Source: Spirochaetales bacterium (GTDB lineage: Bacteria; Spirochaetota; Spirochaetia; Sphaerochaetales; Sphaerochaetaceae). Taken from it: DNA of 38,917 nucleotides. Below, piece after piece: positions 11,803-38,917 of the stretch. The notes under the pieces are model-generated. The model was not told the DNA's origin. It did not search any database and saw nothing but the letters and a program-made list of their open reading frames with translations. The first letter of the stretch is position 1; each line of letters starts with the position of its first letter. The position numbers and the translations under genes are program-made. Location of the stretch: the NCBI GenBank assembly GCA_012523305.1, contig JAAYIV010000153.1, positions 1-38,917 of the forward strand. The letters are read 5' to 3'.

Positions 11803-11820
11803 GCCGGTACCGTCTTCCTT

Positions 11821-12978: not shown

Positions 12979-13016
12979 TGTATCCTCCAGAATGCTTATG
13001 TGGCATGCATACTATC

Positions 13017-14105: not shown

Positions 14106-14132
14106 AGGTGCACTCCCCTTCTTCCTAACTAC

Positions 14133-15188: not shown

Positions 15189-15192
15189 ACTG

Positions 15193-15639: not shown

Positions 15640-15642
15640 GTT

Positions 15643-16656: not shown

Positions 16657-16677
16657 AAATACAATCCTCCTGTTTTA

Positions 16678-17955: not shown

Positions 17956-17967
17956 TCCAATTTCTCC

Positions 17968-18474: not shown

Positions 18475-18564
18475 AATCAAGCCCTCTTGACGCATATAGT
18501 AATCTTTCAAGAGCCTAGCATAATGATAACTATGCGAGCGTTATCCCTAGGATTAGAAATCAAC

Positions 18565-18590
18565 AGCGGTTGGCATTAATGCCAACCGCT
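18565..18590 (-). other. Perfect palindromic RNA hairpin between dctP and dctQ
   Basis: AGCGGTTGGCATT (18565-18577) is followed directly by its exact reverse complement, a 26-nt perfect palindrome lying 18 bp downstream of the dctP stop. As RNA it forms a stem of about 11 bp with a 4-nt loop. The minus-strand tail is TGTTGATTTCT, only moderately T-rich, so partial termination or protection of the dctP 3' end is likely. Confidence 0.75.
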
Positions 18591-18607
18591 ACTAGTAACA
18601 CCAACAA

Positions 18608-21655: not shown

Positions 21656-21656
21656 A

Positions 21657-22592: not shown

Positions 22593-22623
22593 CACATGAC
22601 TCCTAACATTCAGATATAGTCGA

Positions 22624-23556
22624 TTATCGGTGCTGACTCCATAACGAGGGATTGACGATGTCAACCGGCACAGGAGCCAACTGTTCTTCAATGGTTATCC
22701 GTTGGGCTTCACTCAGCGAAGATCTTGACAGAAGAGCAATATTTTCCTTCAACTGCTCCAAGGTATCCACACCGATGATCGTCACGTCTATCTCGGGTGT
22801 TCCCAACACGTACGAAAACGCCAGTTCCTTCAAGCTCATGTTCCAGGCCGAAGCCAGATCATGAAATGTTCGTAACCACGGAACCGCACCGGGAAGCCTG
22901 TCCATCGCCTTGTCAAGATCCATCAACAACAATCCTTGCAGGTATGCACTTCTGGTAATGACAGTAACCGAATCTTTCTTGGCTAAGAATCCGGAACGTT
23001 TCCACCGCTGGTCAAGGGCATTGAAAGGAATTTGCATGGCAGAGACGGTCTTGTCATCAAGAGCGCTCAATGCTTCATGCGGACCGTTACCGATCGAGAT
23101 GCCCAAGGTCTTGATCACTCCTTTTTGCTGCCACTGCAGCAACCTGTTCCATACGAGGTGGTCTTTCCATGCGTAATAATCGTACGTATGCAAAAGATAG
23201 AGGGGAATCGTTTCAAGATCCAATGTTTCAAGACTCTCGGTGAGCGAAGCGTCCACCGCTTTTATCAGACTCGCATCATCAAGCTCCTTATAATCTCTGG
23301 GCAAATCGAGTTTGGTGCAGATCAAGAACTCTTTTTCTACTTCTTTGATGGCCTGTCTGATCACCGATTCACTCGAACCGTAATTTCTCGATGTGTCGAG
23401 AAAAGTGATCCCGTGTTCATGGGCCAGAGAGAGTATCGAACACACTTGATCGAAACTTACTTGACCGGTGGAATTGTTTATCCCGTAGGCTTGCCCGAAC
23501 TGAACGGTCCCCAGACCCAGACGTGAATAGTTACGTGTGGTGTTATCGTGCTTCAT
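22624..23556 (-). CDS. Aldo/keto reductase
   Basis: A 310-residue protein with the complete AKR catalytic tetrad: Asp54 (TFLDTSRNYG), Tyr59 in the same motif, Lys82 (LICTKLD) and His123 (LYLLHTYD). The opening SRLGLGTVQFGQAYG is typical of AKR families acting on sugars (L-fucose/galactose dehydrogenase-like and related). It uses NAD(P)H to reduce or NAD(P) to oxidise a carbonyl/hydroxyl in the cytoplasm. Its ATG overlaps the stop of the FrdA-like flavoprotein gene by 4 bp, so the two are probably made together and may act consecutively. Confidence 0.88.
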   Translation of the reverse strand: MKHDNTTRNYSRLGLGTVQFGQAYGINNSTGQVSFDQVCSILSLAHEHGITFLDTSRNYGSSESVIRQAIKEVEKEFLICTKLDLPRDYKELDDASLIKAVDASLTESLETLDLETIPLYLLHTYDYYAWKDHLVWNRLLQWQQKGVIKTLGISIGNGPHEALSALDDKTVSAMQIPFNALDQRWKRSGFLAKKDSVTVITRSAYLQGLLLMDLDKAMDRLPGAVPWLRTFHDLASAWNMSLKELAFSYVLGTPEIDVTIIGVDTLEQLKENIALLSRSSLSEAQRITIEEQLAPVPVDIVNPSLWSQHR

Positions 23557-25229
23557 GGTCTTTTGCCTTCTTCGTAGCTGACAATAATTTCATGGTCTTT
23601 TTCACTGACTTTGATACGCTTTCCCGTAAGGGCTTCATTTCGGTTCGGGAAATCAGCACGGTAGTGCGGTCCCCTGCTCTCTTCACGTCGCAGTATCGCT
23701 TTCAACAGCGATTCTGAGGTGCGCAATGCATGGAACGCTTGCATCGAAAGCTTCACGTCATAGCCGGACTCGATTGCCCTTGCAGCGTTGTATGCTTTAC
23801 GCGTTTTCTCAATCCAATTCAGGACAGGCAACGATAACTCCTTGCTTCTTAATACATTCGCCCGAAGCCAGAGCTGTTCACGCAATGTATGCAAGACATC
23901 ATGGGGGCTGATTGAAGAATTTGTCTTGGTATCTATCCATTGCATGAAGCTGTCAACGATCTCAGTATCCGAAAGCACTTCTGGTGGTGAAGTCTGTTTG
24001 CTGTATGTGCAAGCTGCGTTTGCGGCCCGAGCTCCGAAGACCAGGCACACGGCGGTTGCCGCTCCCCCGTGCCTGTCGGCACCATGGATGCCCCCGGCCG
24101 CCTCTCCTGCGGCAAAGAGCCCATGTACTGAAGTGCAAGCATGTTCGTCAATGGAAATCCCTCCATTTGCGCAGTGGGCGAACGGAGCGATTGAGATTTC
24201 TTGCTTTGCCAGATCGATGTCATGATCCGCATAGAGTTTTCTCAACGAGGCTACCAACTCGTTGGAATCCTCATTGATGCTCTGCTTATATCTGATGATG
24301 AAACCTTGTTCACGATGGTGTTCGATCACATCCTTCATGATGGCCAATTCAAGATATTTCGAGTTATCACGTGTGGTGAACGGTCCGTGCATCGACCGAT
24401 CGCGGATACATTGTTCAAGGCTCACATCTTCTGGCAAGAATGCCCGCAACGCCGGTTTCCGATCTTGATCGAGAATCTCCTGACAGTGCCAGAGTGAGAT
24501 TTCTCCGAAGAGAAGTTTATACACCGGGGCGGTAAGTCCGGGAATGAATTGCATGAACTCGAGGTTGATGAGCTCGGCACCGGCTTCGAGAGCTACCGAA
24601 TGGCCGATACCGCACACGTCATCGGTATTCAAGCTGTGCTTGTACAGTCCGCAATACCCTCCGGTGGCCAAGATCACCGTAGAAGTTTTCACATACACCA
24701 ACTGCGAATTATTATCGATCAACAGTGCTCCGATGATGCGATTGTCACGGTGGAGCAATTTCAACACATCACAGTGCTGCATTACCGTCAGAAGTTCTTG
24801 TGATGAAAAGATATCGGTCACATTTTTTCGAATACGATCCCAATTACGCCACACTTTCAGTATCCGTTCGCGCTTGGCAAAACAAGCCGGGCGTCCGGCG
24901 GCTTGAGCGACCTCGATGCCAAGTTGCGGCAATCGTCCGACCTGGTCGGTGATTTCATCGACCATGATGTGACAGAGATGCTCATCGGCGATACCGTCTC
25001 CCGAGTCCAGCAATTCTTCCAGATAGTCGTTCTTATCAGCAGCATCGCGGGGCAGCTGGGCCCCCAAACCTCCTGTCAGGGGGTAAAAACTTGCTCCGGA
25101 ACACAATCTGCCTTTTGAGATGACCAGAACGTTCAACCCGTCGGCAGCTACATCGTACGCTGCTCGCAGTCCAGCCAGACCGGTGCCCACAACAAGTACA
25201 TCGCATGTCAGATGTCGTTCAATGTGCAT
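23553..25229 (-). CDS. FAD-dependent oxidoreductase, FrdA/SdhA/AprA superfamily (paralogue 1)
   Basis: A 558-residue soluble flavoprotein. Dinucleotide motif VVGTGLAGLRAA (residues 14-24), ATGGYCGLYKHS (189-199), FAD-binding GLFAAGEAAGGIHGADRHGG in the second half and the C-terminal REESRGPHYRADFP stretch identify the fumarate reductase/succinate dehydrogenase flavoprotein superfamily. There is no signal peptide. The family's substrate motif QFHPT reads QFIPG (227-231), so fumarate or succinate is unlikely. SGASFYP occupies the place where SdhA carries its FAD-linked histidine, so FAD is non-covalent. GAAGG precedes the ATG by 6 nt. It lies between HpcH/HpaI aldolase and aldo/keto reductase genes; sugar-acid or amino-sugar oxidation is inferred. 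Two close paralogues lie at 35151-36821 and 37820-38917. Confidence 0.85.
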   Translation of the reverse strand: MHIERHLTCDVLVVGTGLAGLRAAYDVAADGLNVLVISKGRLCSGASFYPLTGGLGAQLPRDAADKNDYLEELLDSGDGIADEHLCHIMVDEITDQVGRLPQLGIEVAQAAGRPACFAKRERILKVWRNWDRIRKNVTDIFSSQELLTVMQHCDVLKLLHRDNRIIGALLIDNNSQLVYVKTSTVILATGGYCGLYKHSLNTDDVCGIGHSVALEAGAELINLEFMQFIPGLTAPVYKLLFGEISLWHCQEILDQDRKPALRAFLPEDVSLEQCIRDRSMHGPFTTRDNSKYLELAIMKDVIEHHREQGFIIRYKQSINEDSNELVASLRKLYADHDIDLAKQEISIAPFAHCANGGISIDEHACTSVHGLFAAGEAAGGIHGADRHGGAATAVCLVFGARAANAACTYSKQTSPPEVLSDTEIVDSFMQWIDTKTNSSISPHDVLHTLREQLWLRANVLRSKELSLPVLNWIEKTRKAYNAARAIESGYDVKLSMQAFHALRTSESLLKAILRREESRGPHYRADFPNRNEALTGKRIKVSEKDHEIIVSYEEGKRP

Positions 25230-25262: not shown

Positions 25263-26063
25263 TTATCGTCTTGTCATATCCTTGAATTGATGTAAAATCG
25301 AGGAAAACCCTTCTGCCAATATGATCACATCGGCAGCACACGCTATGATATCAGCCCCGAGTTCGATATAAGAGGGAACCTCTTCGACCGGGCAGCTGAG
25401 AAACAATGCCTTGCCATATTTCTTGGTTGTCTCGCAAGTGGTGATACGCGCTTTTTGTACCTTCGGATGATCAAGCTGTCCCGATAATCCCAGACTGTTT
25501 GAAAAGTCATTCGAACCAAAGAAGATGCCATCGATTCCCTCCGTGGAGCAAATCGCATCCAAGTGTTCGATAGCTTCGTAATCTTCTATTTGCAAGATGA
25601 TGAATTTGTTGTGGTTGGAATTGTACACATACTCATCGTAAGGCAACATCGCATAGGCCCCGTCGGCATTACCGGTATCGATAGCACGGCGTCCGAGTGG
25701 TGGGAATCGGGTCATCCTCACCACTTCGGCCGCCTCTTGGCCACTGGTCACATGCGGAACCATGATACCGGTGGCATCCAATTCAAATGGTTTGATGTAA
25801 TTATTGTACGGTCCTTTTGAGATGCGCACGAAGCTATCCATATCGGTCATCTTGCACGCCATGATCATATGTTCGATTTCTTGCCAATCAGCCGCGGTGT
25901 GCTCGGCATCGATCCACATGCAGTCGAATCCGAGCAGTCCGGCAATCTCTACCGCCCTGCTCGATCCGGTGTTCACCGTCGCACAGCTCGAAGGTACTCC
26001 CGCTCTGAAATTTCGCAGGATCTTACTCTGCCGAAGCGTGATCGATCGTCTTGATTCTCCCAT
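25263..26063 (-). CDS. HpcH/HpaI-family aldolase
   Basis: A 266-residue class II (metal-dependent) aldolase. CMWIDAEHTAADW gives the catalytic-histidine region, FVRISKG the substrate arginine, FPPLGRRAID a conserved loop, LQIEDYEAIE the metal-binding Glu, and FFGSNDFSNSLG the metal-binding Asp. The family catalyses reversible retro-aldol cleavage of 2-keto-3-deoxy acids into pyruvate plus an aldehyde (for example 2-keto-3-deoxyrhamnonate or glucarate aldolase). It is 4 bp downstream of the DapA/NanA-like lyase gene and 33 bp upstream of a flavoprotein gene, indicating a sugar-acid pathway that ends in pyruvate. Confidence 0.88.
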   Translation of the reverse strand: MGESRRSITLRQSKILRNFRAGVPSSCATVNTGSSRAVEIAGLLGFDCMWIDAEHTAADWQEIEHMIMACKMTDMDSFVRISKGPYNNYIKPFELDATGIMVPHVTSGQEAAEVVRMTRFPPLGRRAIDTGNADGAYAMLPYDEYVYNSNHNKFIILQIEDYEAIEHLDAICSTEGIDGIFFGSNDFSNSLGLSGQLDHPKVQKARITTCETTKKYGKALFLSCPVEEVPSYIELGADIIACAADVIILAEGFSSILHQFKDMTRR

Positions 26064-26067
26064 AATC

Positions 26068-26949
26068 CTACCCTATTTCTCCGGTGCGTTTCATAATTGC
26101 GACGATCGTTTGTTTTGCAGCTTCATCCAGTTCCGGTTCGTAATCAGGAGCGAATCGGCCTTGGTATCCAAGCAGGTTCATCGCATAGGAGAATGCCGGC
26201 CAGATACCCAATGCGATCATATCGTCTCTTGCATCCATCATCATGTTCAGATGTTGCTTTGCCGATTCGAAATTACCAGTATCCAAAGCACTTTGGATGA
26301 TTCCGATGGTTTTGGGGAAGCTGGCGAAAATTCCATCAAGGTAATTCTTGATCCCGTAGGCTTGGGCTACGGCAAACAAATCCGATCCGCTGAAAATCGG
26401 GAGGAAATCCTTTTTGATTTCTTTTGATTCATGCAATTGCCTGATCAATACCAAATCTCCGCTCTTGATGCCTTTGATGTTTTTGATCTTGGACAGGTTC
26501 ATCATCATGGGAAAGGTGATTTTGTGTTTGGTTATCGGTACGTGATCATAGAGGTAGATATCCATCCCGGTCAACGCTGCCGCCCGGGCAAAGAACCGTT
26601 CAAGCACCTGATCCGGCATCTTGAAATAGTACGGGGCGGTGAGCACTGCGATATCAACCGGATAGCGTTCGAGGATGGCAAAACGATCCTTGACCCTGGC
26701 AAGTGAATTGTCCGAGCATCCCACAAGAAGGGTGACCCTTCCGGCTATGGCTTCACAGGCACATTCGATGATTTCTTCATAGGCACTGTTGCGAATGGTA
26801 CCGAGGGCGCCCATCGTTCCCATTACGAGAAGACCGGAAGCACCGCTGGCAATCTGATCTTCGATTTGTTTGACGAAACTTTGCTTGACCACCTTCCCTT
26901 GGTCATCCAGGGGCGTACCTAACGCTGTGTAGAATCCGTCTTTTCTCAT
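26068..26949 (-). CDS. DapA/NanA-family lyase (dihydrodipicolinate synthase-like)
   Basis: A 293-residue TIM-barrel lyase. The start at 26949 (MRKDGFYTALGTPLD) is chosen for GAGGAG 7 nt upstream; the upstream extension overlaps oppF. Tyr134 in IYLYDHVPI and Schiff-base Lys162 in KGIKSGD match the family's catalytic pair. The GTTGE loop reads GTMGALGT (44-51), so substrate specificity differs from true DapA. Family members include N-acetylneuraminate lyase and 2-keto-3-deoxy sugar-acid aldolases or dehydratases. Position after an oligopeptide-type ABC transporter and before an HpcH/HpaI aldolase suggests sugar-acid breakdown; sialate lyase is possible but unproven. Confidence 0.85.
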   Translation of the reverse strand: MRKDGFYTALGTPLDDQGKVVKQSFVKQIEDQIASGASGLLVMGTMGALGTIRNSAYEEIIECACEAIAGRVTLLVGCSDNSLARVKDRFAILERYPVDIAVLTAPYYFKMPDQVLERFFARAAALTGMDIYLYDHVPITKHKITFPMMMNLSKIKNIKGIKSGDLVLIRQLHESKEIKKDFLPIFSGSDLFAVAQAYGIKNYLDGIFASFPKTIGIIQSALDTGNFESAKQHLNMMMDARDDMIALGIWPAFSYAMNLLGYQGRFAPDYEPELDEAAKQTIVAIMKRTGEIG

Positions 26950-26963
26950 GTGGGAGCTCCTCT

Positions 26964-27995
26964 TTATTCGCTTATCTGTTGTTCCGTATGTAAGAAACAA
27001 GCTACTTTGTGACCTTCATTTCCTTTCATGCCACGCAATGGCGGTTCTTCTTTGGTGCATATGTCCATGCAAAAACGACACCGAGGATGGAACCTGCATC
27101 CGCTAGGAGGATTCACCGGCGACGGCACGTCGCCTTTGAGAAGGATCCTGTCCTTTCTCGCCCCCACCTTCGGAATCGGCACGGCCGAAAGCAACGCCTG
27201 CGTATAGGGATGAAGCTGCCGGTCATACAGACAGACAGAATCGGCAATTTCGACTACTTTGCCGAGGTACATTACCGCGATCCTGTCACTCATATATTGA
27301 ACGACACTCAAATCATGGGCGATAAACACGAAGGTAAGGTTGAATTCGTTCTGCAACCTGCGCATGAGGTTCAGTATCTGGGCTTGGATGGAGACATCAA
27401 GGGCGGACACCGGTTCATCGCATACGATCAATTCGGGATCGAGTGCCAAAGCCTTTGCAATACATATCCTCTGGCGTTGTCCGCCCGAGAATTCGTGAGG
27501 GTAACGATACATGTAATCGGGTTGCAGATTCACTGTTTTCAACGCTTGGGCAATTTTTTCCGTACGTTCGCTTTTCGATCCCAGGCCATGGATTCTCATC
27601 GGTTCGTCGAATGCATTATGTATGTTCTTCATCGGATCGAATGATGCGTACGGATCTTGGAAAATCATTTGGATTCTTCGTCTGGTCTTGAAACTCTCTT
27701 TTTTTGGCAATGAAAGCAGATCATGGAACTCGCCGTCATCGCAGCGTAGCAACAGCTCGCCGGATGTCGGTTTGTGTAAACGCAACAGGCTTTTTCCCAA
27801 TGTCGATTTACCACACCCCGATTCCCCTACGACACCAAGTGTTTCTCCTTTTCGAATATCCAAGGTGATATCATCGACTGCTTTTACATGACCGGTGACT
27901 TTCCGAAGCCATCCCGAGGATACGGGAAAATATTTCTTTAGGTGTTTGAGCTGCAGCAGGACGTGTCGGTCAAGCATAGTCTTATCGTCTGTCAT
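26964..27995 (-). CDS. oppF: Oligopeptide/dipeptide-type ABC transporter ATPase (OppF/DppF)
   Basis: A 343-residue ATPase from the ATG at 27995 (MTDDKTMLDRH), which overlaps the oppD stop; the longer frame beginning at 28052 lies inside oppD. Walker A GESGCGKST, signature FSGGQRQRICIA, Walker B LIVCDEPVSALD, and a C-terminal cysteine-rich CRFHPRCRFCMDICTKEEPP motif typical of OppD/OppF proteins are all visible. It energises import together with OppD. Opp-type transporters also carry oligosaccharides and glycosides, which fits this catabolic setting better than peptides. Confidence 0.93.
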   Translation of the reverse strand: MTDDKTMLDRHVLLQLKHLKKYFPVSSGWLRKVTGHVKAVDDITLDIRKGETLGVVGESGCGKSTLGKSLLRLHKPTSGELLLRCDDGEFHDLLSLPKKESFKTRRRIQMIFQDPYASFDPMKNIHNAFDEPMRIHGLGSKSERTEKIAQALKTVNLQPDYMYRYPHEFSGGQRQRICIAKALALDPELIVCDEPVSALDVSIQAQILNLMRRLQNEFNLTFVFIAHDLSVVQYMSDRIAVMYLGKVVEIADSVCLYDRQLHPYTQALLSAVPIPKVGARKDRILLKGDVPSPVNPPSGCRFHPRCRFCMDICTKEEPPLRGMKGNEGHKVACFLHTEQQISE

Positions 27996-28998
27996 CTTTA
28001 CATTTCTCCTCATACAGCCAACAACGGACTTCATGCCCTTCTTCAATCTCACATACCATGGGATGCTCCTCAGTGCATTTTTTCATTGCGAACGGGCATC
28101 TTGGTTCGAATTCACAGCCTTTGAACACCGTCGATGCGTCAGGGGTGGTTCCTTCGATTGATTCAAGCTCGGTATCCTTGCCCATACCCAACACAGGCAC
28201 TGATTTAAGCAATGCCTTAGTATAGGGATGATGTGGATTTTCAAAAATTTGGAGTAACGAACCGAATTCAACGACCCTTCCCATGTACATGACCGCCACC
28301 TCATCACAGATTTCAGCCACGATACCCATGTTATGGGTGATAAGAATGACGGAGGTGCCATGCTCTTGCTGCATTTGTTTGATCAATGCGAGGATTTGGG
28401 CTTGAATGGTCACGTCCAGCGCTGTTGTCGGTTCGTCTGCAATCAGGATGTTCGGATTACAGATCATACCGATGGCGATCATCACCCGCTGTTTCATTCC
28501 GCCCGAAAACTCGAACGGATAACTCTTGAAACGATCTTCCGGACTCGGAATTCCCAATTCGCCAAGCATTCTGATTATTTTTTCCTTGGCTTCTTTTTTA
28601 CTGAGTTTCTCGTGCATTCGCAGGTTTTCCATGATCTGCCAACCGATCGAATACACCGGATCGAGTGAAGAAAGGGAGTCTTGAAAAATCATCGCGATAT
28701 CTTTTCCACGGATTGATCGCAATTCCTTGCTATTTCGTTTGAAATCGGTGAGGTTCAGCGTCTGTTCAGGACTCGGAGTGTACAGGACCTGTCCACCTTC
28801 GATGTGGGCGGCCTTGGGAAGCAGCTGCATGATCGATAGGGCTGTCACACTTTTCCCACATCCCGATTCGCCGACAACTCCCAGCGTTGTGCCTCGGCGG
28901 AGGTTAAAACTCACATCATTGACCGCATGGACGGTTTTCTTGCCGATCTTGAATCTGGTTTCTAGGTTTTTCACCTGCAGTATGTAATCTTTTTCCAT
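27982..28998 (-). CDS. oppD: Oligopeptide/dipeptide-type ABC transporter ATPase (OppD/DppD)
   Basis: A 338-residue ATPase with Walker A GESGCGKSV, signature FSGGMKQRVMIA, Walker B ILIADEPTTALD, the LITHNMG switch histidine, and the C-terminal CEFEPRCPFAMKKCTEEHP motif. It pairs with OppF, whose start codon lies within its last codons. Only a weak AAGGCGG precedes the ATG, 13 bp after oppC, so translation is probably coupled. Confidence 0.93.
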   Translation of the reverse strand: MEKDYILQVKNLETRFKIGKKTVHAVNDVSFNLRRGTTLGVVGESGCGKSVTALSIMQLLPKAAHIEGGQVLYTPSPEQTLNLTDFKRNSKELRSIRGKDIAMIFQDSLSSLDPVYSIGWQIMENLRMHEKLSKKEAKEKIIRMLGELGIPSPEDRFKSYPFEFSGGMKQRVMIAIGMICNPNILIADEPTTALDVTIQAQILALIKQMQQEHGTSVILITHNMGIVAEICDEVAVMYMGRVVEFGSLLQIFENPHHPYTKALLKSVPVLGMGKDTELESIEGTTPDASTVFKGCEFEPRCPFAMKKCTEEHPMVCEIEEGHEVRCWLYEEKCKDDRR

Positions 28999-29011: not shown

Positions 29012-29884
29012 TTACTCTGTTGCATCGAATACATCCCGCAAGCCGTCACCGAAAAAGTTCACTCCCAGAACAAAGAGGGAGATGACTATGCCCGGTGCCA
29101 TCCAAAGATTGGGATAGTTTTGGAATATATGGAAACTGCTAGCAGCATTGATGACATTTCCCCATGTCGGTATCGCTGTCGGGACCCCCATGCCGAGGAA
29201 GCTGAGGGCTGCTTCGGCAAGCACGAAGCCCGCCGTCTGCATGGTGATCGAAACGATAACCGGCCCGAGCGTGTTCGGAAGGATATGTTTGAACATGATG
29301 GAGAAACCTGAAATGCCATTGGCAACACAGCTTTCCACGAACGGTTCTGTCTTTAATGACAACACCCTGCTGCGGACGAGTCGGGCAGTGCCCATCCATC
29401 CGGTGAAACAGAATATGAGAATCAGATTGGCAAGGCTTCTTCCGCTGAGTCCGACAAGAATAAGCACCAGCATGATCTGGGGAAACGTAGTGAATATTTC
29501 ACCGACATAAATGATAAACGAGTCAAAACGACCACCATAATAGCCTGCGATACTTCCCAAGGTACATCCGATCAAAGCTGCCCCCAAGGCAGCGCTAAGC
29601 CCGACGGCGATTGATATTCTTCCTCCGTAGAGAAGTCTGGTAAACGTATCTCTTCCAGCATTGTCCGTTCCGAGCAGATGTTCGCTTGACATGGGAAGCA
29701 AACGGACTTTCGGATCAACGTATGATGGGTCGTATGAGGTGAACAACGGTGCGAATATCGCGCAGAGGGTAAAAAACAGGATGATGAACAATCCGACAAG
29801 GGCAAGCTTGTTTGAAGCGAACTTGAGCATGTTTCGCTTGGCCAGGCTGGATTTATATATTTTGCCGCTTTTAGTTTGTGCCAT
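29012..29884 (-). CDS. oppC: Oligopeptide/dipeptide-type ABC permease (OppC/DppC)
   Basis: A 290-residue membrane protein. The start at 29884 (MAQTKSGKIYK) is chosen for GGAGG 6 nt upstream. The N-terminal TM, HLLGTDNAGRDTFTRLLYGGRIS and the later AEAALSFLGMGVPTAIPTWGNVI segment, including the EAA-type loop, are typical of DppC/OppC. It forms the translocation channel with OppB, 17 bp upstream. Confidence 0.92.
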   Translation of the reverse strand: MAQTKSGKIYKSSLAKRNMLKFASNKLALVGLFIILFFTLCAIFAPLFTSYDPSYVDPKVRLLPMSSEHLLGTDNAGRDTFTRLLYGGRISIAVGLSAALGAALIGCTLGSIAGYYGGRFDSFIIYVGEIFTTFPQIMLVLILVGLSGRSLANLILIFCFTGWMGTARLVRSRVLSLKTEPFVESCVANGISGFSIMFKHILPNTLGPVIVSITMQTAGFVLAEAALSFLGMGVPTAIPTWGNVINAASSFHIFQNYPNLWMAPGIVISLFVLGVNFFGDGLRDVFDATE

Positions 29885-29901
29885 AGATTTCCTCCACCAC
29901 A

Positions 29902-30867
29902 TCACATCTTGCCGAATCTGATTCGCGGATCAAGAAGAGCCGAGAGCAAATCGACAAGAAAGCTTGCTATCAACACTGCCAGCGCAATAAAAAAAGTAGC
30001 TATCATGACCACAGGCATGTCACTGCCGGAAATCGATTCCAATATTAATTTCCCCATGCCAGGATAGTTGAAGACACTTTCGATAACAACGGTTCCGGCG
30101 ATAAGGATGGGGATTCTGTTGACGATGATGATCATCACAGGAATAATCGCATTCCTGAATGAGTGAACCAGATTCACGCGAGTCTCGGAAAGGCCTTTGC
30201 TTCTGGCGGCTTTCACGTAGTCCTTATTCATGGTATCCAACATTGATCCTCGTGTGTAACGCATCAATGTGGCAGTGTAAGAGATGCCGATGACCAAGAC
30301 CGGCATGACAAGGTACGGAATCCTTTGAAAGAATCCCGGTTGTCCGGGAGTCATCCTTCCTCCCGGGGGAAGCCATCTGAATGTCAGGCCAAACACCACG
30401 ATGGCACTTAAGCCGAAGAAAAATTCGGGAATTGAAACGCCTACCATTCCCAGTGCGGTAAGCGAATAATCGATCGGAGTATTACGTTTCAAAGCTGATA
30501 TGAATCCGAACAACAGTCCGAGGATTGTCGCGACAGCAAATCCCAAAGCGGTCAGTTCAATGGTGGCAGGAAGCCGAGTCCAGATTATATCGGATATCTT
30601 GACGCCATTTATCAAGCTGTATCCCATATCACCTTTGAGAATATTGCCCAACCATTTGAAATATCTGATGTAGGCGGGATCATTCAGCCCCAGGTTTTCC
30701 CTCATGTTCGCAATCGTCTCTTCGGTCATGAATGCCATCTGTTCCGGTGGGATAAGATAAGAGATGGGGTCGCCGGGAACAAATTCCAACCCGATGAAGA
30801 TGAGAATGGTGATAATGAGAATTTTGGGTATGAATGAAAGAAGCCTTCGGAAAAAATATTTAAGCAT
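29902..30867 (-). CDS. oppB: Oligopeptide/dipeptide-type ABC permease (OppB/DppB)
   Basis: A 321-residue membrane protein. The start at 30867 (MLKYFFRRLLSFIPKILI, the standard DppB/OppB opening) is preceded by GAGGG at 7 nt. RYTRGSMLDTMNKDYVKAARSKGLSE is the conserved EAA-loop region that contacts the ATPases. VVIESVFNYPGMGKLILESI is also typical. About six membrane helices. A 166-bp gap with a strong hairpin separates it from oppA. Confidence 0.92.
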   Translation of the reverse strand: MLKYFFRRLLSFIPKILIITILIFIGLEFVPGDPISYLIPPEQMAFMTEETIANMRENLGLNDPAYIRYFKWLGNILKGDMGYSLINGVKISDIIWTRLPATIELTALGFAVATILGLLFGFISALKRNTPIDYSLTALGMVGVSIPEFFFGLSAIVVFGLTFRWLPPGGRMTPGQPGFFQRIPYLVMPVLVIGISYTATLMRYTRGSMLDTMNKDYVKAARSKGLSETRVNLVHSFRNAIIPVMIIIVNRIPILIAGTVVIESVFNYPGMGKLILESISGSDMPVVMIATFFIALAVLIASFLVDLLSALLDPRIRFGKM

Positions 30868-30970
30868 ATAGTCGCCCTCTGTGTTCGCGTACCTTTCGGG
30901 CAGGGGACCAACCTTCGGGTACAATCCATCTCTGTTACATACCCGTATTGACCATAATTACCCTTATTCA

Positions 30971-31033: not shown

Positions 31034-32716
31034 CTATTTCTTATTCAGTTTCCAGGTCTCAAGACGAAGATCACAGGTCCTGTAGATCGCCAGGTCCGAA
31101 GCCTTCAGCCATGCTGGGTCGAAGTCCCACTTGGCATCATTATAAATCATCATCTTGTTCATGGAAATAACAGGAATCGGACTTCCGTAATTAAGGCTGT
31201 TCTGTTGCAAGAGAATAGCCAATTCCTTGAGTCTCGCAGGATCGCTCGTGGCAGATACTTCCTTGAGGTATTTGCCGAAGAGTTCTTCCCTGACTGCTTC
31301 GTTGCCAAGATAGACGTCATAGATGGTTCCGGGATTCACTACGCCGTAGTTCTCTACGCCGCTGAGTTGGTTTGCTCCGGCATAACAGATATCCCAGTTT
31401 TTCTGCTCATAAATCGCTGCATAGATGTCTTGGATCACAACTCTTGATTCTGCTGGAATTCCAATTTCGGCAAGGTTCTGTACGGTAAGGTCCATCAGGT
31501 CATTGTGCATCTGATCATTGTAATAGTATGCGATTCTGATCGGGCTACCATCATAACCAGCTTTTTTTAACAACGCTTTGGCAGCTTCGACATCACGTTT
31601 GAATAATGGGATACTCTTGTCATACAACGGATCTCCGGGGTTCACCGCGGTTGACAATGCAACGGCCTGTCCGGGGAAGTATGAAGCAAAGGCTTCCTTG
31701 TCGATCGCCAAGTTGATGGCTTTTCTGAAATCAGCGTTGGCCATGAACTTGTTCCACTTTCCATCTGCCGATCCGGTGAGGTTCGTAGTGAACAAGCGGT
31801 AGTAGGGGCTGAAGAATGCATTGTAAGCATAGTCAGGATTCTGTTTGACCACATTGCTGGCGATATTGACATCGTTAAATGCATTTGAGTGAGCCAAATC
31901 CAATCGTCCGGCGATCATTGCGGCAACCGCGGCATCCGTCCCACCGGCGTCGAAACTTATCCCGGTAACACGTTTGATACCCGGGCGGGGACCATACCAG
32001 CTGTCATTTCTTACCAAGACGCAATAGTCCGGGAACGTGACGCTTTCAAGCACATACGGTCCGCAGTGAACCGGAGCTTTCCAATAATCGTACGAACCGA
32101 ATTTGGTGTAATCCACATCGGCCGGAAACAAATGTCTCGGATAAGGAACGAATGTAGCCAGGGTTCTCATCATGAATCCGTACGGCTGGGTAAGGGTGAT
32201 GGTGAGCTTCTTGCCTTCAGCTTTGACTCCGCTGATGCTGTTAGCTGTCTTATCGAAGTATTCCTGGGCTCCTTTGATGAACTGGAACGAACCGCGTTCA
32301 TTCTGGATACCATATCCCCTGAGCTGGGCTTCCAGGCTGAATACAACGTCATCGGCGGTAACGGGCTTGCCGTCTGTCCAATTCAGATTCTCGCGGATAT
32401 AGAAGGTATACACTAATCCGTCAGCAGAAACTTCCCAACGATCTGCCATTCTCGGCACGATCTTCGAGGTATCTTCCATGTCGAGTTTGATGAGCGTATC
32501 GTAAAGAAGATCGGGAACCTGTGACTGATAGTCTCTGTACACGCATTCGAATGAACCGCTGGTACCGCCTGCGGCATACCATAGGACATTCAATGTTCCT
32601 GTCTCGCTGAAATCTTCGGCAGCCTTAACTGCCCCAGCTTCCGCTGCGCCTCCTGCAAACAAATTCGGTATCAATAATACCGAACACAGAAATAAAACGG
32701 TTACTAGTTTTTTCAT
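31034..32716 (-). CDS. oppA: Extracellular solute-binding protein, family 5 (OppA/DppA type)
   Basis: A 560-residue exported protein. The signal peptide ends near LFAGGAAEAGA. The family-5 pattern is clear: VPDLLYDTLIKLDMEDTSKIVPRMADRWEVSADGLVYTFYIRENLNWTDGKPVTADDVVFSLE early on, and FRKAINLAIDKEAFASYFPGQAVAL in the middle. Family-5 proteins bind peptides, nickel or oligosaccharides/glycosides. GGAG lies 8 nt before the ATG, and a strong promoter is at 32783-32811. It leads an 11-gene operon whose enzymes are all of carbohydrate or keto-acid type, so an oligosaccharide or amino-sugar conjugate is a likely ligand. Confidence 0.92.
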   Translation of the reverse strand: MKKLVTVLFLCSVLLIPNLFAGGAAEAGAVKAAEDFSETGTLNVLWYAAGGTSGSFECVYRDYQSQVPDLLYDTLIKLDMEDTSKIVPRMADRWEVSADGLVYTFYIRENLNWTDGKPVTADDVVFSLEAQLRGYGIQNERGSFQFIKGAQEYFDKTANSISGVKAEGKKLTITLTQPYGFMMRTLATFVPYPRHLFPADVDYTKFGSYDYWKAPVHCGPYVLESVTFPDYCVLVRNDSWYGPRPGIKRVTGISFDAGGTDAAVAAMIAGRLDLAHSNAFNDVNIASNVVKQNPDYAYNAFFSPYYRLFTTNLTGSADGKWNKFMANADFRKAINLAIDKEAFASYFPGQAVALSTAVNPGDPLYDKSIPLFKRDVEAAKALLKKAGYDGSPIRIAYYYNDQMHNDLMDLTVQNLAEIGIPAESRVVIQDIYAAIYEQKNWDICYAGANQLSGVENYGVVNPGTIYDVYLGNEAVREELFGKYLKEVSATSDPARLKELAILLQQNSLNYGSPIPVISMNKMMIYNDAKWDFDPAWLKASDLAIYRTCDLRLETWKLNKK

Positions 32717-32855: not shown

Positions 32856-33992
32856 CTATATTATATCAAGAAATATACATTGTATTTGACTTTTCCCGTG
32901 TTGTTCGTACCAGAAAGTCAGCATCCATTTCCCGTTTTGTAGTTTTATTGCTGAAGGCTGGCCGAACTTAAGGTACGCAAAAACACTATGCTTGGTGCTG
33001 TCCTTTGAGAAGGGCTCGGGTTCCCATATCATTTGCTGTGAAATGATATCGAAAGTGTTATCCCGAATCTGGGCAATGCAAGCCAAAAGGCCTGGTCTAT
33101 CGGTATCTCTGCGGATAGAATGCAAGGTGAGCACTCGATCGTTACCCAGATAATGGATACTGGAAGCCTGTCCCATGATTCCTGTGGATATCGGAGAAAA
33201 AAAGGTCTTTCCGTAATCATTGGACACAGCAATATGGTTCGGATGTAACTGATTGTTTTTCAAATCCTCCACCCATGCTATGACAGCAACCATACCAGGT
33301 TCCATTTCACATGCACGTTGTTCCCATACGCTCATATGAGGTTTTGGAAACCTCAGCGTCACCGTCACGTCATCCCATGTAAGTCCTTCGTCTTCGCTTC
33401 GAAGCATCCTGCCAAACAAGCCGGAAGCGGTGCTGCCGTCCCAATTCATGAAATTGGCAATAGGAGTGATCCAATGACCGTTCGACAGTACGACAAGCGG
33501 TGCCGACGCTTCTACCGGTTCGTTGAAACTGACCGGTATGATCTCAGGACGGTGAAAATGTTTTGCTTCATCATCCGATCTGAGCAGTACCACTTCATCG
33601 GGTAATACACCGCCGGTATCAGGATTTCCCACCGGAACCGACGGATCGTCCCGAAAGAATCGGTAGCCGATGGCAACGACTGTATGCGAACCTACCGCAG
33701 TTATCTTGCAACTGTCGGTAAACACCCGGTCTTTGATCGATGCTTCGAACAATTTTACCGGAGAGTGCCAGGTGGTACCACCGTCAATACTCGAGCTGAC
33801 CATGGTCGTGGTATCGATGTTGTCCATTCCCGAACCGGCGACAAACGCTGCCAACAGCTTGCCGTTGTCCATTTGCGTGACATTCGGAAAGTATGCGCTT
33901 ACTTTACTATCGCCTGAAGTAAGTTGACCGCATATAATTTTTGAATCCAATACTTTGATACTACTCATATGATGTTCTCCGTTCGTTTTCAT
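32856..33992 (-). CDS. BNR/sialidase-fold beta-propeller protein (paralogue A)
   Basis: A 378-residue protein from the ATG at 33992 (MKTNGEHHMSS), which has AGGAGG 5 nt upstream. Asp-box motifs S-x-D-x-G-x-T-W occur at 68-75 and 199-206, with degenerate copies at 139-146 and 257-264, showing a sialidase-type six-bladed propeller. No signal peptide is seen, so it is cytoplasmic. Where sialidases have the FRIP arginine this protein reads AYFPNV (33-38), so a canonical sialidase mechanism is doubtful. A W-E-Q-R-A-C motif (223-228) is shared with its neighbour. Annotation pipelines would call it exo-alpha-sialidase; I infer a different glycosidase or lyase activity on an imported glycoside. Confidence 0.75.
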   Translation of the reverse strand: MKTNGEHHMSSIKVLDSKIICGQLTSGDSKVSAYFPNVTQMDNGKLLAAFVAGSGMDNIDTTTMVSSSIDGGTTWHSPVKLFEASIKDRVFTDSCKITAVGSHTVVAIGYRFFRDDPSVPVGNPDTGGVLPDEVVLLRSDDEAKHFHRPEIIPVSFNEPVEASAPLVVLSNGHWITPIANFMNWDGSTASGLFGRMLRSEDEGLTWDDVTVTLRFPKPHMSVWEQRACEMEPGMVAVIAWVEDLKNNQLHPNHIAVSNDYGKTFFSPISTGIMGQASSIHYLGNDRVLTLHSIRRDTDRPGLLACIAQIRDNTFDIISQQMIWEPEPFSKDSTKHSVFAYLKFGQPSAIKLQNGKWMLTFWYEQHGKSQIQCIFLDII

Positions 33993-34012
33993 ATTCACCT
34001 CCTGGCAGTCGA

Positions 34013-35140
34013 TCATTCGTCATCAAAACCGATCATCACATAGGAGATCGAAGTATCATCGCAATGTTCTCCCGCATAGAAATAGGCAAGCAATCTGTTT
34101 TCTGATAATTTCAACAGATGCGGATGGCCAACCGAAAATCTAGCCATTTCAGCCCACGCTTCATTCATGCTTATCTGTTTACTATCCTGTTTTGTCATCG
34201 CACTATCATAGATAACCAAAGATTCACTCCATGTGCGAGCCCTATCATCGCTAAGTCTTACAGTGATCACGGGACGCGTCGATCTATCGATGTCGATACA
34301 GGCTAAGCCGTGAAGAGCACAATCGACAGGTCGTCCCGGTTGTCCATAGATTCCGGTATCCCACAATTCACCCCATGTGCGGCCCGCGTCCCTGCTCTCT
34401 TTTGCATGGATATTGAGATAGGTATTGCGCTTTCCGTCGAGTGACCAAAAGAAATCGACGAGTGTCTTGCCGTCATCGGTGACGCAAGGTCGCTGATCCC
34501 AATAATACATATCTGGAACATCGGTTACCAATGTAAGGTTATCCCAGGTAGATCCTTGATCGGCAGAGAAGATCATAGCCGACCGATGGATCCATGTACG
34601 CGTATCCTTTCTGTTTTTGTTTATCTCGAAGTGACACGCCAGCCGACCATCGCCGAGTAATAATGGGGAACCGGTAAGGGCTACCGGATCAGCATCACTA
34701 CCGATGTGGACTCTCTTCGGTTCGGACCAAGTAATTCCTTCGTCTTCGGAAATGATAGAGAAGATATAGGTATCTTTCAGGCTTTCGGTCACCGGATCAT
34801 AAAACGGTTGATCACTGATTGAACCGTCCACCCAATTGAACAGTGCCAATACGCGCGAGCCGCCGAGTGATACGCAATAGTAGCAGATACTCATGCCTTC
34901 CCGCCCATCGATAAGTGGCAATCGCACCGGTTCGTACCAACTAGCCCAAGTAGCGCCCTGGTTATCGCTATAGGTCATCATCGCATTGAAGTGACGGGAT
35001 CCTTTGGTCGTCGCTATCCTGAACGATGCTAGCCAACGTCCTGAGGGCAGTGCTTCGATCGAGCAGAATGTATTGCTCGGATACAAAGAGTATGCGGGGT
35101 CTTTTGGGATAGTACCGCGCCGTATCACCTTCATCATCAC
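34013..35140 (-). CDS. BNR/sialidase-fold beta-propeller protein (paralogue B)
   Basis: A 375-residue protein with five Asp boxes: 58-65, 131-138, 192-199, 249-256 and 297-304 (the last lacks the glycine). This is a clear sialidase-type propeller. No signal peptide. The expected FRIP segment reads TFCSIEALPSG (24-34), without the arginine; an FRIA at 40-43 is displaced onto the following strand. A W-D-Q-R-P-C motif (214-219) matches the WEQRAC of paralogue A, and both have a G-I-x-G-Q segment afterwards, so the two genes are an old tandem duplication. GGGAG lies 9 nt before the ATG, 10 bp after the flavoprotein stop. Confidence 0.75.
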   Translation of the reverse strand: MMMKVIRRGTIPKDPAYSLYPSNTFCSIEALPSGRWLASFRIATTKGSRHFNAMMTYSDNQGATWASWYEPVRLPLIDGREGMSICYYCVSLGGSRVLALFNWVDGSISDQPFYDPVTESLKDTYIFSIISEDEGITWSEPKRVHIGSDADPVALTGSPLLLGDGRLACHFEINKNRKDTRTWIHRSAMIFSADQGSTWDNLTLVTDVPDMYYWDQRPCVTDDGKTLVDFFWSLDGKRNTYLNIHAKESRDAGRTWGELWDTGIYGQPGRPVDCALHGLACIDIDRSTRPVITVRLSDDRARTWSESLVIYDSAMTKQDSKQISMNEAWAEMARFSVGHPHLLKLSENRLLAYFYAGEHCDDTSISYVMIGFDDE

Positions 35141-35150
35141 CCAGATCTCC

Positions 35151-36821
35151 CTATGTGAATCGATATTCGATATCTTTGTCTGCGGTCGATTGGACCATCA
35201 AGCGCCTCGCATAGGACCGATCATTTTTTTCGGGGTAATCCTCTCTATAATGCGGACCCCTGCTCTCTTTCCTGAGTAACATGCACTCGAGCAATATCAT
35301 ACTCAGTCGAGCAGCATGATCAGCTTTCACCGCCATACCAATCGTCTTGGGATTGGACATATGGGTAGCAGGATTGAAATCTTCATACAATTGTCTTATT
35401 CGGTCTTTGGCATAAACAAGGTCCCGTTCATTACGTACTACATTGGCATGATACCACATCAGATGACGAATTTCCTTAATGAGTTCATCCGCATCAATCC
35501 TATTGGGACGATGATGTTCAAATCTTTCGGTAAGTGCTTTTCGAGCGATTGAGGTATTTATCGCTTGTCGATCACAAGACTTGGCCCATTGGGAAGCATA
35601 TGCTCCAGATCGATGACCGAAGACAAGGCAGCTCCCCGAAGCATTGCCTCCATGGCGATCCGCTCCATGAAGGCTTCCGGCGACTTCTCCGGCAGCATAC
35701 AGACCATTCACGCCGGTAGCGCACCGAACATCGATCACGATTCCTCCGTTACTTGCCTGGGCAAGCGGGGCAATCGTATGCTTGGTGCCCAACAAATCGA
35801 TGTGTTGTTCCTTCCTGATCCAATCAACATAGATCGAAATGAATTCTCTTTTGTCCTCGAGTAGCTTCGGGTCATAGCTCAGGTTAAAGCCTTTTTCGCA
35901 ACCGGTGTCGTTGATCTCTTTCATCATCGCGATATCAAAGTAGCGGGAGATGTCACTCGAGGTGTACGGACCATGTTTGGATCGTTCATCCAAGCACTGT
36001 CGGCTGGTGATCGATGACGGTAGATATCTGGCGAGCAAATCCCGACCCTCCGCATCATTGACTTGCGTGCAATATCCAAGGATCTGTTCGCTGAAGAGCA
36101 CTTTGTAACGAGGCGTCATGAAGCCGGGGATGAATTGGATAAATTCCATGTTCACCAATTTCGCACCGGCATCGAGAGCAAGGATATGGCCATGGCCGCA
36201 TACATCGGATGGATTCAGGTTGTGTTCGAACAGATCGCCGAATCCTCCGGTAGCGAGGATCATCGAACGGCAGCTGATGACAAAAAGGGAGCCTTGCCTG
36301 TCGATGCATAGTGCTCCGGCTATATGATCATCATGAAGGATAGTATCGATTACTGTGCAATGTTCCATCAACCTGACATTGTCTTTGGCTTTAAGCAGGG
36401 CATAACTCTTATTACGGATCGCGTTCCAGTCTTCCCAGATGAATATGTCCCGTGCTCGTTTTGCAAAACAGGGGATCCTCCCTCCCTGCATCTTCCGATA
36501 AGGGATTCCCATCGCAGGCAGTTCCGCTACCCGGTCTCTGATCTCATCGATATAGATCTTTGTAAGCTCTTCATCGTGCATCTGAAAGGAGGATTCCCTG
36601 ATTTCTTCAAGCAGACGGATATTGTCCTCGGGATCTTCTGTGGGTGCTTGGCATCCCAGAGCTTCCATCAAAGGATAAAAACTAGAACCCGAGCATATGG
36701 TGCCTTTTGATACCACCAACACTTCCATACCGCTCTCACTGGCACTATGGGTGGCTTTCAATGCTGCCAGTCCGCCACCGATGACAAGGATATCGGTAGT
36801 AATAGTCTGAAATCTCATCAC
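35151..36821 (-). CDS. FAD-dependent oxidoreductase, FrdA/SdhA/AprA superfamily (paralogue 2)
   Basis: A 556-residue flavoprotein, clearly homologous along its length to the one at 23553-25229. VIGGGLAALKA (13-23) is the FAD dinucleotide motif, ATGGFGDLFEHNLN follows near 190, and QFIPG (229-233) replaces the QFHPT of fumarate reductases. RSKHGPYTSSDISRYFD, GLYAAGEVAGSLHGADRHGG and RKESRGPHYREDYP are shared blocks. PCFAKRARD (117-125) is also shared with paralogue 1. No ferredoxin or membrane anchor partner is encoded beside it. GGAGG is 4 nt from the ATG, which overlaps the stop of the Gfo/Idh gene by 4 bp. Confidence 0.85.
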   Translation of the reverse strand: MMRFQTITTDILVIGGGLAALKATHSASESGMEVLVVSKGTICSGSSFYPLMEALGCQAPTEDPEDNIRLLEEIRESSFQMHDEELTKIYIDEIRDRVAELPAMGIPYRKMQGGRIPCFAKRARDIFIWEDWNAIRNKSYALLKAKDNVRLMEHCTVIDTILHDDHIAGALCIDRQGSLFVISCRSMILATGGFGDLFEHNLNPSDVCGHGHILALDAGAKLVNMEFIQFIPGFMTPRYKVLFSEQILGYCTQVNDAEGRDLLARYLPSSITSRQCLDERSKHGPYTSSDISRYFDIAMMKEINDTGCEKGFNLSYDPKLLEDKREFISIYVDWIRKEQHIDLLGTKHTIAPLAQASNGGIVIDVRCATGVNGLYAAGEVAGSLHGADRHGGNASGSCLVFGHRSGAYASQWAKSCDRQAINTSIARKALTERFEHHRPNRIDADELIKEIRHLMWYHANVVRNERDLVYAKDRIRQLYEDFNPATHMSNPKTIGMAVKADHAARLSMILLECMLLRKESRGPHYREDYPEKNDRSYARRLMVQSTADKDIEYRFT

Positions 36822-37816
36822 ACCTCCACCGAGCGTTGTTCTTTGTGTGACTGATAGGAGCGTTCAACCAATTCAACGATACGTTGTCCGTATGCGCCAT
36901 CGATCGGGGAAGGTGTTTCATCATTCAGATACTTGAGGAAATCAACCAGTTGCAACCGGTAAGAATTGTCATCCTCAACTGGAATCTGTTTAAAATCATG
37001 TTCATTCGAGCCAATCCACACACCTTTCGGTTCGATCACGTTGTCGCGTAACGTTACCCGTACTATTCCCTTTGAAAAAATGAACTCAGTTGCATTGACA
37101 AATGGATTACTGTAACCGGTGCAGGTCATGGTCATGGATATATCGTTCCCCATCAGTGCCATGATCTGATAGCCGCTATCCACGGCAACTGCGGGTTGCT
37201 CCCAATCGACATGGGCAAAAATCGTGTTGATCGGTTGACCGGTGAGGTAGCAGACACGGTCTAGCGTATGAACTCCGTAGTTCATCAAGATTCCCCCGCC
37301 GCACTTGCTATCATCGAGAAACCACGCGGGCCGGCCTTCCCAGAAATAGTGATAGTGGATCGAGTCTTTCACCATGATAAGCTTGCCGAGTTCTTTGCTG
37401 TCAATGATGCGCTTTGTCGCGACATACAGCGGGTTATAGCGCTGGGTATGGCCGATCATCAGCTTTGTTTTGGTAGCTTCGAAGAGGGCGTTGATTCGTT
37501 TGCAGGCTTCGCTGTCTTGGGCCATCGGTTTTTCAAGAAGTACGGGAACATCAACGTTCGCGCAAGCGATTGCCGACTCTTCATGCAGATGGTTGGCCAG
37601 ACAGATGATCGCCCCGTCAAGTTTCACCGATGCAAGCATCGCATGGTAATCGCCGAACACGTTGCGTTCATCGATGCCATACGTGCGCGCCACATCGATC
37701 GCCTTGCCAAGGGTCCTATTGGAAAGGGCGACGATGTGCACACCGGGAATCTGTTGGGCTGCCTTGATATGTTCATGAGCAATGATCCCGGTCCCGATAA
37801 TTCCCAATTTTACCAT
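36818..37816 (-). CDS. Gfo/Idh/MocA-family oxidoreductase
   Basis: A 332-residue protein with Rossmann motif KLGIIGTGIIAHEH (3-16), E-K-P at 95-97 (LLEKPMAQD), and GGGILMNYGVHTLDRVCYLTG, which gives the substrate-domain histidine. It lies between two paralogous FrdA-like flavoprotein genes, overlapping one by 4 bp and separated from the other by 3 bp, so the three proteins are very likely co-produced. NAD(P)-linked sugar oxidation is expected; the substrate is unknown. AAGGTGG precedes the ATG by 6 nt. Confidence 0.88.
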   Translation of the reverse strand: MVKLGIIGTGIIAHEHIKAAQQIPGVHIVALSNRTLGKAIDVARTYGIDERNVFGDYHAMLASVKLDGAIICLANHLHEESAIACANVDVPVLLEKPMAQDSEACKRINALFEATKTKLMIGHTQRYNPLYVATKRIIDSKELGKLIMVKDSIHYHYFWEGRPAWFLDDSKCGGGILMNYGVHTLDRVCYLTGQPINTIFAHVDWEQPAVAVDSGYQIMALMGNDISMTMTCTGYSNPFVNATEFIFSKGIVRVTLRDNVIEPKGVWIGSNEHDFKQIPVEDDNSYRLQLVDFLKYLNDETPSPIDGAYGQRIVELVERSYQSHKEQRSVEV

Positions 37817-37819
37817 CTG

Positions 37820-38917
37820 TTACCACCTTATCACTTCAAATGAAAGCTCTGTTTCTTTCTTCCGTACTGCGATCATCCCTGCCAAGGCAGGATCCTGTTC
37901 GGGATAGTCAATCCGATAGTGCGGTCCCCGGCTTTCTTTTCTATGACGCATTACCGTCAGTAGAACTTTCGCCGTTTCGATCGCACTGCGCAGATCGACT
38001 GCGCGCTTCATCTGTCGTTTCAGTTGAAGATGTGCTGTCACATTGAATCGTTTTTCTATTTCCGCAATCTTTTTCAATCCTTCATCACATCGTTGGGCAC
38101 TGCGTACGATCGCTCCGTTCTCCCACATGATGGTTTGTATTTCTTGTATGGATTCGGCCACACTAACGATACCGCCTTGTTTGGAATCCAACTGCTTCAA
38201 CACCCGGTGTGCGACCTCATCCGTTTTCATGACGCAAAGACTCCTGTCCGAAGCCCATCGTGCCGCTTCTTTTCCGGCAATCGCACCGAATACTTGAGTC
38301 GCTGCAATGGCAGCCCCGCCAAGGCGGTCGGCTCCATGGGGACCGCCCGCCGTTTCTCCCGCGGCAAACAGGCCACGTACTCCCGTGGCGCACTGTCGGT
38401 CGATATAGATACCTCCATTGAATCCCTGGGCATGGCAAATCATGTCAAATCCATCGTTGACGACATCGATATGCTTTGCATTCATCCACTCGAGCCAGCT
38501 GGTGATGAACCAACGTGTATCTGAAAGAATCGATGCATCGTATTGCATATGGATGCCCCCCGAATCAAGCACATTGCCTTTTCTCCATTCTTCATACATG
38601 GCGATATCAAAGTAACGGCTGCAGGTGACATTACTAAACGGTCCGTGCTTTGCCCGTTCGGTCAGACATTCGGCAACACTGATATTCGCCGGTAGATAAT
38701 CATTCAGGATCTCTTTTCCATGGCGGTTGGTCACCGAAGGAATCGAATCGAGGTTTTTCTCTTGAAAGAGCATTTTCTTCACCGGATGGGTCAAACCGGG
38801 TATGAATTGGATGAATTCAAGGTTTACCAAACGAGCCCCGGCATCAAGGGCAAGCGCATACCCGTTTCCGGTTTGGTCTGCTGTTGCCAAGCCGTAGCGA
38901 TAGATGCCACAGGCGCC
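37820..38917 (-). CDS. FAD-dependent oxidoreductase, FrdA-like (paralogue 3, N terminus outside window)
   Basis: The gene runs off the right edge in open frame; about 365 C-terminal residues are seen, beginning GACGIYRYGLATADQTG, which aligns with the ATGGYCGLYKHSLNTDD region of paralogue 1. Apparent starts inside this fragment are not real. Shared blocks are NLEFIQFIPGLTHP, ERAKHGPFSNVTCSRYFD, GLFAAGETAGGPHGADRLGG and RKESRGPHYRIDYP. As in the other two, the QFHPT motif of fumarate reductase is QFIPG. The FAD dinucleotide motif would lie beyond the window. It is the first visible gene of the operon that continues with Gfo/Idh, flavoprotein 2 and the BNR pair. Confidence 0.83.
   Translation of the reverse strand, partial: GACGIYRYGLATADQTGNGYALALDAGARLVNLEFIQFIPGLTHPVKKMLFQEKNLDSIPSVTNRHGKEILNDYLPANISVAECLTERAKHGPFSNVTCSRYFDIAMYEEWRKGNVLDSGGIHMQYDASILSDTRWFITSWLEWMNAKHIDVVNDGFDMICHAQGFNGGIYIDRQCATGVRGLFAAGETAGGPHGADRLGGAAIAATQVFGAIAGKEAARWASDRSLCVMKTDEVAHRVLKQLDSKQGGIVSVAESIQEIQTIMWENGAIVRSAQRCDEGLKKIAEIEKRFNVTAHLQLKRQMKRAVDLRSAIETAKVLLTVMRHRKESRGPHYRIDYPEQDPALAGMIAVRKKETELSFEVIRW

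Follow-up and report, generated by a model that had tools for sequence, protein, structure and literature searches.

Tandem sialidase-like propeller proteins of a Spirochaetales bacterium are predicted to form an uncharacterised family with a rebuilt active site

Two adjacent genes of a Spirochaetales bacterium, here called SialA and SialB, would probably be labelled exo-alpha-sialidases by automatic annotation, and the use of sialic acid would be predicted from them. Do their products carry the machinery of a sialidase, and if not, what might they act on? The window analysed, 38,917 nucleotides, is the entire contig C87 of the assembly. Both open reading frames lie on the minus strand where a preliminary description of this DNA had placed them and overlap by 4 bases (Table 1); judged by its homologues, SialA may start at Met17.

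Table 1. Genes of the SialB-SialA run and active-site columns of the two propeller proteins, by position in the window
Feature	Position	Strand	Description
FAD1	37820..38917	minus	SDH-like flavoprotein, N-terminus cut by contig end
GFO4	36818..37816	minus	Gfo/Idh/MocA oxidoreductase
FAD2	35151..36821	minus	Stand-alone SDH/fumarate-reductase-like flavoprotein; substrate His replaced by Gln
SialB	34013..35140	minus	375 aa, predicted cytosolic BNR_2 / six-bladed propeller, branch B; AF2 model
SialB residues 23-26 (NTFC)	35063..35074	minus	FRIP columns, without Arg
SialB W214-D215-Q216-R217	34490..34501	minus	D215 in GH33 catalytic-Glu column
SialB W232	34445..34447	minus	Second triad arginine column
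SialB R286	34283..34285	minus	Family arginine before third-triad column
SialB H339 (GHP)	34124..34126	minus	Nucleophilic Tyr column; profile-profile alignment agrees
SialA	32856..34016	minus	386 aa, BNR_2, paralogous branch A
SialA residues 41-44 (AYFP)	33885..33896	minus	FRIP columns, without Arg
SialA W231-E232-Q233-R234	33315..33326	minus	E232 in GH33 catalytic-Glu column
SialA W248	33273..33275	minus	Second triad arginine column
SialA R302	33111..33113	minus	Equivalent of SialB R286
SialA Q353 (FGQP)	32958..32960	minus	Nucleophilic Tyr column
Solute-binding protein, family 5	31034..32716	minus	Opp/Dpp/Nik type
Two ABC permeases	29012..30924 (29902-30924, 29012-29905)	minus	
Two ABC ATPases	26964..28998 (27982-28998, 26964-28052)	minus	
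DHDPS/NAL-superfamily aldolase	26068..27000	minus	GTMG loop replaces GxTGE
HpcH/HpaI-type aldolase	25263..26063	minus	
FAD3	23553..25229	minus	Third SDH-like flavoprotein, substrate His retained
Aldo/keto reductase	22624..23556	minus	
NagB-like	21657..22691	minus	Glucosamine-6-phosphate deaminase fold; DGH-motif Asp replaced by Thr
UroD-like protein	20549..21697	minus	Relatives adjoin SialB in L014 and L065

Pfam BNR_2 matches SialA at 36.5 bits and SialB at 51.1 bits, both over its cut-off of 31.4 bits, and no NCBIfam model matches either protein. The clear Asp boxes of the preliminary description are present, three canonical and one degenerate in SialA and four plus one in SialB. The AF2 model of SialB (pLDDT 91.2, pTM 0.91) shows a predicted six-bladed Asp-box propeller, and the list of its PDB matches in Foldseek is headed by 5hx0 (TM 0.75), followed by GH33 enzymes; for SialA the same fold is predicted from profiles only. 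At 375-386 residues, each protein consists of a single propeller with no C-terminal CBM-like domain. As had been suggested, neither has a hydrophobic N-terminus or signal peptide in a hydropathy scan of the first 45 residues, where the best 12-residue stretch scores 0.89 in SialA and 0.47 in SialB versus approximately 2-3 in most other sampled BNR_2 proteins (among relatives, L066 is borderline), and both are predicted to be cytosolic.

Active-site columns were derived from profile-profile alignment to GH33 and from a joint alignment of 22 family members (9 A, 13 B) with 35 other BNR_2 proteins, and the two approaches were concordant. All column counts given here come from the joint alignment, in which the aligned proteins are distant and the comparison set is drawn from few genomes; the SialA/SialB family probably arose once, so the counts are not independent events. 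The preliminary description had singled out replacement of the first triad arginine, that of the FRIP motif, and this residue is indeed found in 0/22 family members, with A-Y-F-P in SialA and N-T-F-C in SialB. As the key feature, however, FRIP loss was rejected as too common, since only 8 of the 35 other BNR_2 proteins have the arginine. What is unusual is the additional loss of the second arginine and the tyrosine nucleophile: the second triad column holds Trp in 22/22 members versus Arg in 35/35 others, and the nucleophilic Tyr is present in 0/22 versus 35/35. The third triad column holds Arg in 6/22 members, both window proteins among them, versus 30/35 others. A complete arginine triad with a Tyr/Glu pair was looked for in the alignments and was not found, which bears out the earlier view that the triad is incomplete and that these are not GH33-type sialidases.

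Judged at the sequence level, only the acid of the Tyr/Glu pair survives. The catalytic-Glu column is Glu in all nine A members and, by a conservative change, Asp in all 13 B members, and the residue in the Tyr column varies (Gln in 7/9 of A; His in 7/13 and Leu in 5/13 of B). The GH33 acid/base Asp column falls in a loop of ambiguous alignment, with Ser or Asp in B and Asp or Glu in A, and no general acid was identified. Around the retained acid, WDQR is invariant in B (13/13), and in A the acid is Glu (9/9), the fourth position Arg/Lys (9/9) and the first W, Y or F, so that of the W-(D/E)-Q-R-x-C motif described earlier the first four positions are real and family-wide and the trailing Cys is unconserved. 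Residues gained by the family include the Arg/Lys two residues past the catalytic acid (R217 in SialB; 22/22), Gln267 (22/22) and R286 in SialB numbering (21/22), which lies three residues before the third-triad column. Taken together, [WYF]-[DE]-Q-R, the Trp, R286 and GQ would form a rebuilt site in place of the sialidase set. Loss of almost the entire ancestral catalytic set could also mean that these propellers sense sugars or act as scaffolds without catalysis, which we regard as very improbable, as members from four phyla keep a different set of polar residues (acid, Q-R, W, D, H, R, G-Q) and the genes lie within catabolic operons.

The same columns bear on a further alternative, in which an acidic sugar (a nonulosonate or uronate conjugate) is still the substrate and R217 and R286, relocated, bind its carboxylate, making the proteins sialidase-like hydrolases with a rebuilt site. 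Both residues are new family-wide basics close in sequence to those lost, and SialA and SialB each have Arg at the third-triad column; against this, none of the 22 members has the Tyr or an arginine at the first or second triad column, and only a minority have Arg at the third. We consider this alternative rather unlikely, and return below to gene contexts that speak for and against it.

SialA and SialB share approximately 25% identity, and profiles built from their relatives align over their full length (E 4e-51). In a tree of 57 propellers that included six FRIP-bearing GH33 proteins, A (support 100/99), B (100/100) and A+B (100/96) were each recovered, and the A+B clade stood apart from the six GH33 proteins. 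The two proteins thus appear to be two branches of one well-supported family, separate from GH33. Relatives are found in Spirochaetota, Bacillota, Bacteroidota and Lentisphaerota, and six genomes overall contain both branches (G000, G496, G498, G499, G646 and G670). Among 289 genomes from the phylum of L014, B occurs in five, A in three and both in two; the chance of such co-occurrence is approximately 7e-4 if the branches are independent, a value uncorrected for kinship and for a threshold that was chosen using a profile made mostly of B members. An attempt to enlarge the co-occurrence sample around G498 gave only 30 genomes. The outsiders grouping nearest to the family are cytosolic BNR proteins (L071, L075), whose genes have N-acetylneuraminate-lyase-like aldolases and importers as neighbours. 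One of the two belongs to the genome of the window, and this context favours the acidic-sugar alternative.

Among known enzymes, GH33 (clan GH-E) shares the six-bladed Asp-box propeller and the acid at the catalytic Glu column, and its profile aligns with SialB at E 7e-19 and SialA at E 5e-17; unlike GH33, the two proteins lack the FRIP arginine, the second arginine and the Tyr nucleophile, belong to a family in which the third arginine is not conserved, are predicted to be cytosolic and fall in a separate clade. GH181 (Akkermansia Amuc_1547), of the same superfamily, has Gln for Tyr beside the catalytic Glu, like E232/Q353 of SialA, a likeness present in A (E 9/9, Q 7/9) and absent from B (D; H or L). 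In GH181 the water that attacks is held by Glu218 and Gln350, and catalysis proceeds with inversion (PMC10067855). Unlike SialA and SialB, with Trp throughout the second arginine column, it retains two arginines and carries a CBM-like domain, and its structure 8axi gives a weak, partial match to the SialA profile (E 0.0026). PDB 5hx0 (Dfer_1899, of unknown function) is the best fold match of SialB, the best profile match of SialA (E 4e-16) and the third-ranked profile match of SialB; it retains Glu and the second arginine in the alignment, which puts it on the conventional side, unlike our pair. In alignments with solved structures the family's catalytic-Glu column recurs in 5hx0 and in an exo-alpha-sialidase, whose Arg falls on the family Trp or close to it. 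The preliminary description had proposed a check against GH93, and membership was rejected, as exo-arabinanase structures matched one stretch only (profile 133-207; E 2e-4 to 4e-4). By the tests made, SialA and SialB fall outside both GH33 and GH181 and represent an uncharacterised family within the sialidase-like propeller superfamily. We found no paper on this family, and none on 5hx0.

The two genes belong to one operon, part of a closely packed run of 16 genes that are all on the minus strand and extend from 38917 to 20549, in the order FAD1, GFO4, FAD2, SialB, SialA, solute-binding protein of family 5, two permeases, two ATPases, DHDPS-family aldolase, HpaI-type aldolase, FAD3, aldo/keto reductase, NagB-like and UroD-like. 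The 139-base gap preceding the solute-binding protein gene holds a promoter-like site (11/12), and for this reason the run may be transcribed as more than one transcript. Fumarate reductases carry a substrate His, and at this position FAD1 and FAD2 have Gln and FAD3 has His, all three stand-alone SDH/fumarate-reductase-like flavoproteins sharing the operon. A divergent NagB-like family without the DGH-motif Asp is represented in the window, at L061:3074-4009 and at the start of contig C88 (L128:1-172). A join of C87 to C88 was considered, as an aminotransferase and the start of another NagB-like gene, in matching orientation, stand at the beginning of C88; adjacency was not supported, C88 having no FAD1 N-terminus. 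Elsewhere in the window (10507-19618) lie adjoining genes for a TRAP transporter, a LarA-type racemase, a NagA-like deacetylase and two Gfo/Idh proteins.

That the operon carries a NAL-superfamily aldolase and a NagB-like protein would again fit an acidic sugar. Neuraminate lyases have a GxTGE loop. The partner aldolases of SialA/SialB modules argue against this fit: in 5/5 (the window, L005, L070, L108 and L109), GTMG or GSMG replaces that loop, while the Tyr and Schiff-base Lys are kept. Nan-type clusters of the same genome (contig C51) and of G121 share with the operon an importer, a cytosolic BNR protein, a DHDPS/NAL-family aldolase and UroD-like proteins; they differ in that their BNR protein retains Glu, the second arginine and Tyr, and their aldolase the GxTGE loop. 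A separate cluster of this kind, at L117 (contig C51) and L071, encodes an ABC importer and three UroD-like proteins together with a neuraminate-lyase-like aldolase and a cytosolic BNR protein that has Glu, the second Arg and Tyr retained.

Part of the operon recurs together with SialA in G498, a Clostridiales genome in which a single contig carries HpaI, the aldo/keto reductase, DHDPS (57%), solute-binding proteins, SialA (41%) and FAD1 (55%), with both permeases and both ATPases at 50-61%. This pairing of SialA with FAD1 and importer homologues upholds the link to neighbouring dehydrogenases drawn in the preliminary description. In a family relative (G121), importer, DHDPS, FAD3 and FAD1 lie in a row at 59-85%, with a SialA relative (30%) divergently oriented beside it; a FAD1 relative (63%) adjoins the importer-DHDPS block in a family relative. 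G496 has SialA, the aldo/keto reductase and NagB-like (85%) together, and SialB downstream of a DHDPS relative. Elsewhere, in Bacillota, Bacteroidota and Lentisphaerota, SialB adjoins an amidohydrolase and a class III aminotransferase, encoded either separately or as a fusion; the genome of the window has homologues of both on C88 (aminotransferase 53%), the latter followed by the second NagB-like gene start. The Amidohydro_2-class III aminotransferase fusion lies beside SialB in L009, L011, L013 and L065, and the genes are split in L007. The nitrogen-handling genes of this context (NagB-like, class III aminotransferase, amidohydrolase) had no part in the earlier model, which is partly supported as a whole.

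A close rival, which takes up the idea of the preliminary description, is that SialA and SialB are lyases or hydratases for 3-keto (or 4-keto) glycosides, taking the elimination or hydration steps of a route like that of levoglucosan. The 3-keto-disaccharide-hydrolase and xylose-isomerase-like families are known from keto-sugar chemistry. A SialA relative, L066, abuts a gene of the former family and another, L067, a gene for a xylose-isomerase-like TIM barrel; the operon itself contains Gfo/Idh and flavin dehydrogenases, and no conventional dehydratase was found within it. These keto-sugar neighbours are single cases outside the window, however, and we know of no lyase or hydratase with an active site of the SialA/SialB type. 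Precedents for such chemistry exist in the four-step oxidation-elimination-hydration-reduction breakdown of levoglucosan (PMC7676230) and in sialic acid recycling via keto intermediates with the putative dehydrogenase YjhC (PMC7315737). On balance we hold this rival to be unlikely.

Our best reading is that SialA and SialB are uncharacterised cytosolic hydrolases or lyases in which a Glu or Asp would activate water against an imported oxidised or amino-sugar conjugate. Loss of the carboxylate-binding triad makes a normal sialoside an improbable substrate; an oxidised (keto) or amino-sugar conjugate is the probable one. In its full form the explanation, which we favour tentatively and with less than even confidence, treats the two as paralogous enzymes cleaving a conjugate that the Opp-type ABC importer would bring into the cytosol and the Gfo/Idh and flavin dehydrogenases would prepare. 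Water would be held and activated by the surviving acid, Glu in A and Asp in B, together with the residue that stands in the place of the Tyr, Gln353 (A) or His339 (B), as we infer from the resemblance to Glu218/Gln350 of GH181; a glycosidic or similar acetal bond would be hydrolysed with no covalent Tyr intermediate, and both aldolases and the aldo/keto reductase would take over the products. Because the Tyr-column residue is not conserved, such a water-activating dyad would hold only for part of the family. It is possible, though short of probable, that the family is new in the sense that its propeller was kept and the active site remodelled for another substrate and another reaction (such as the cleavage of a keto- or amino-sugar conjugate with no covalent Tyr intermediate), in an undescribed catabolic pathway present in four phyla.

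Lacking the sialidase machinery, SialA and SialB would be markers of a different, conserved pathway. With the whole catalytic set swapped but for one acid, they make a good test case for re-use of the sialidase propeller, and the operon supplies concrete enzymes for identifying the substrate. A sodium:solute symporter is encoded upstream of SialB at L011:5474-7990 (homologues in L009, L010 and L013) and carries an extra N-terminal region of approximately 350 residues with no Pfam match.
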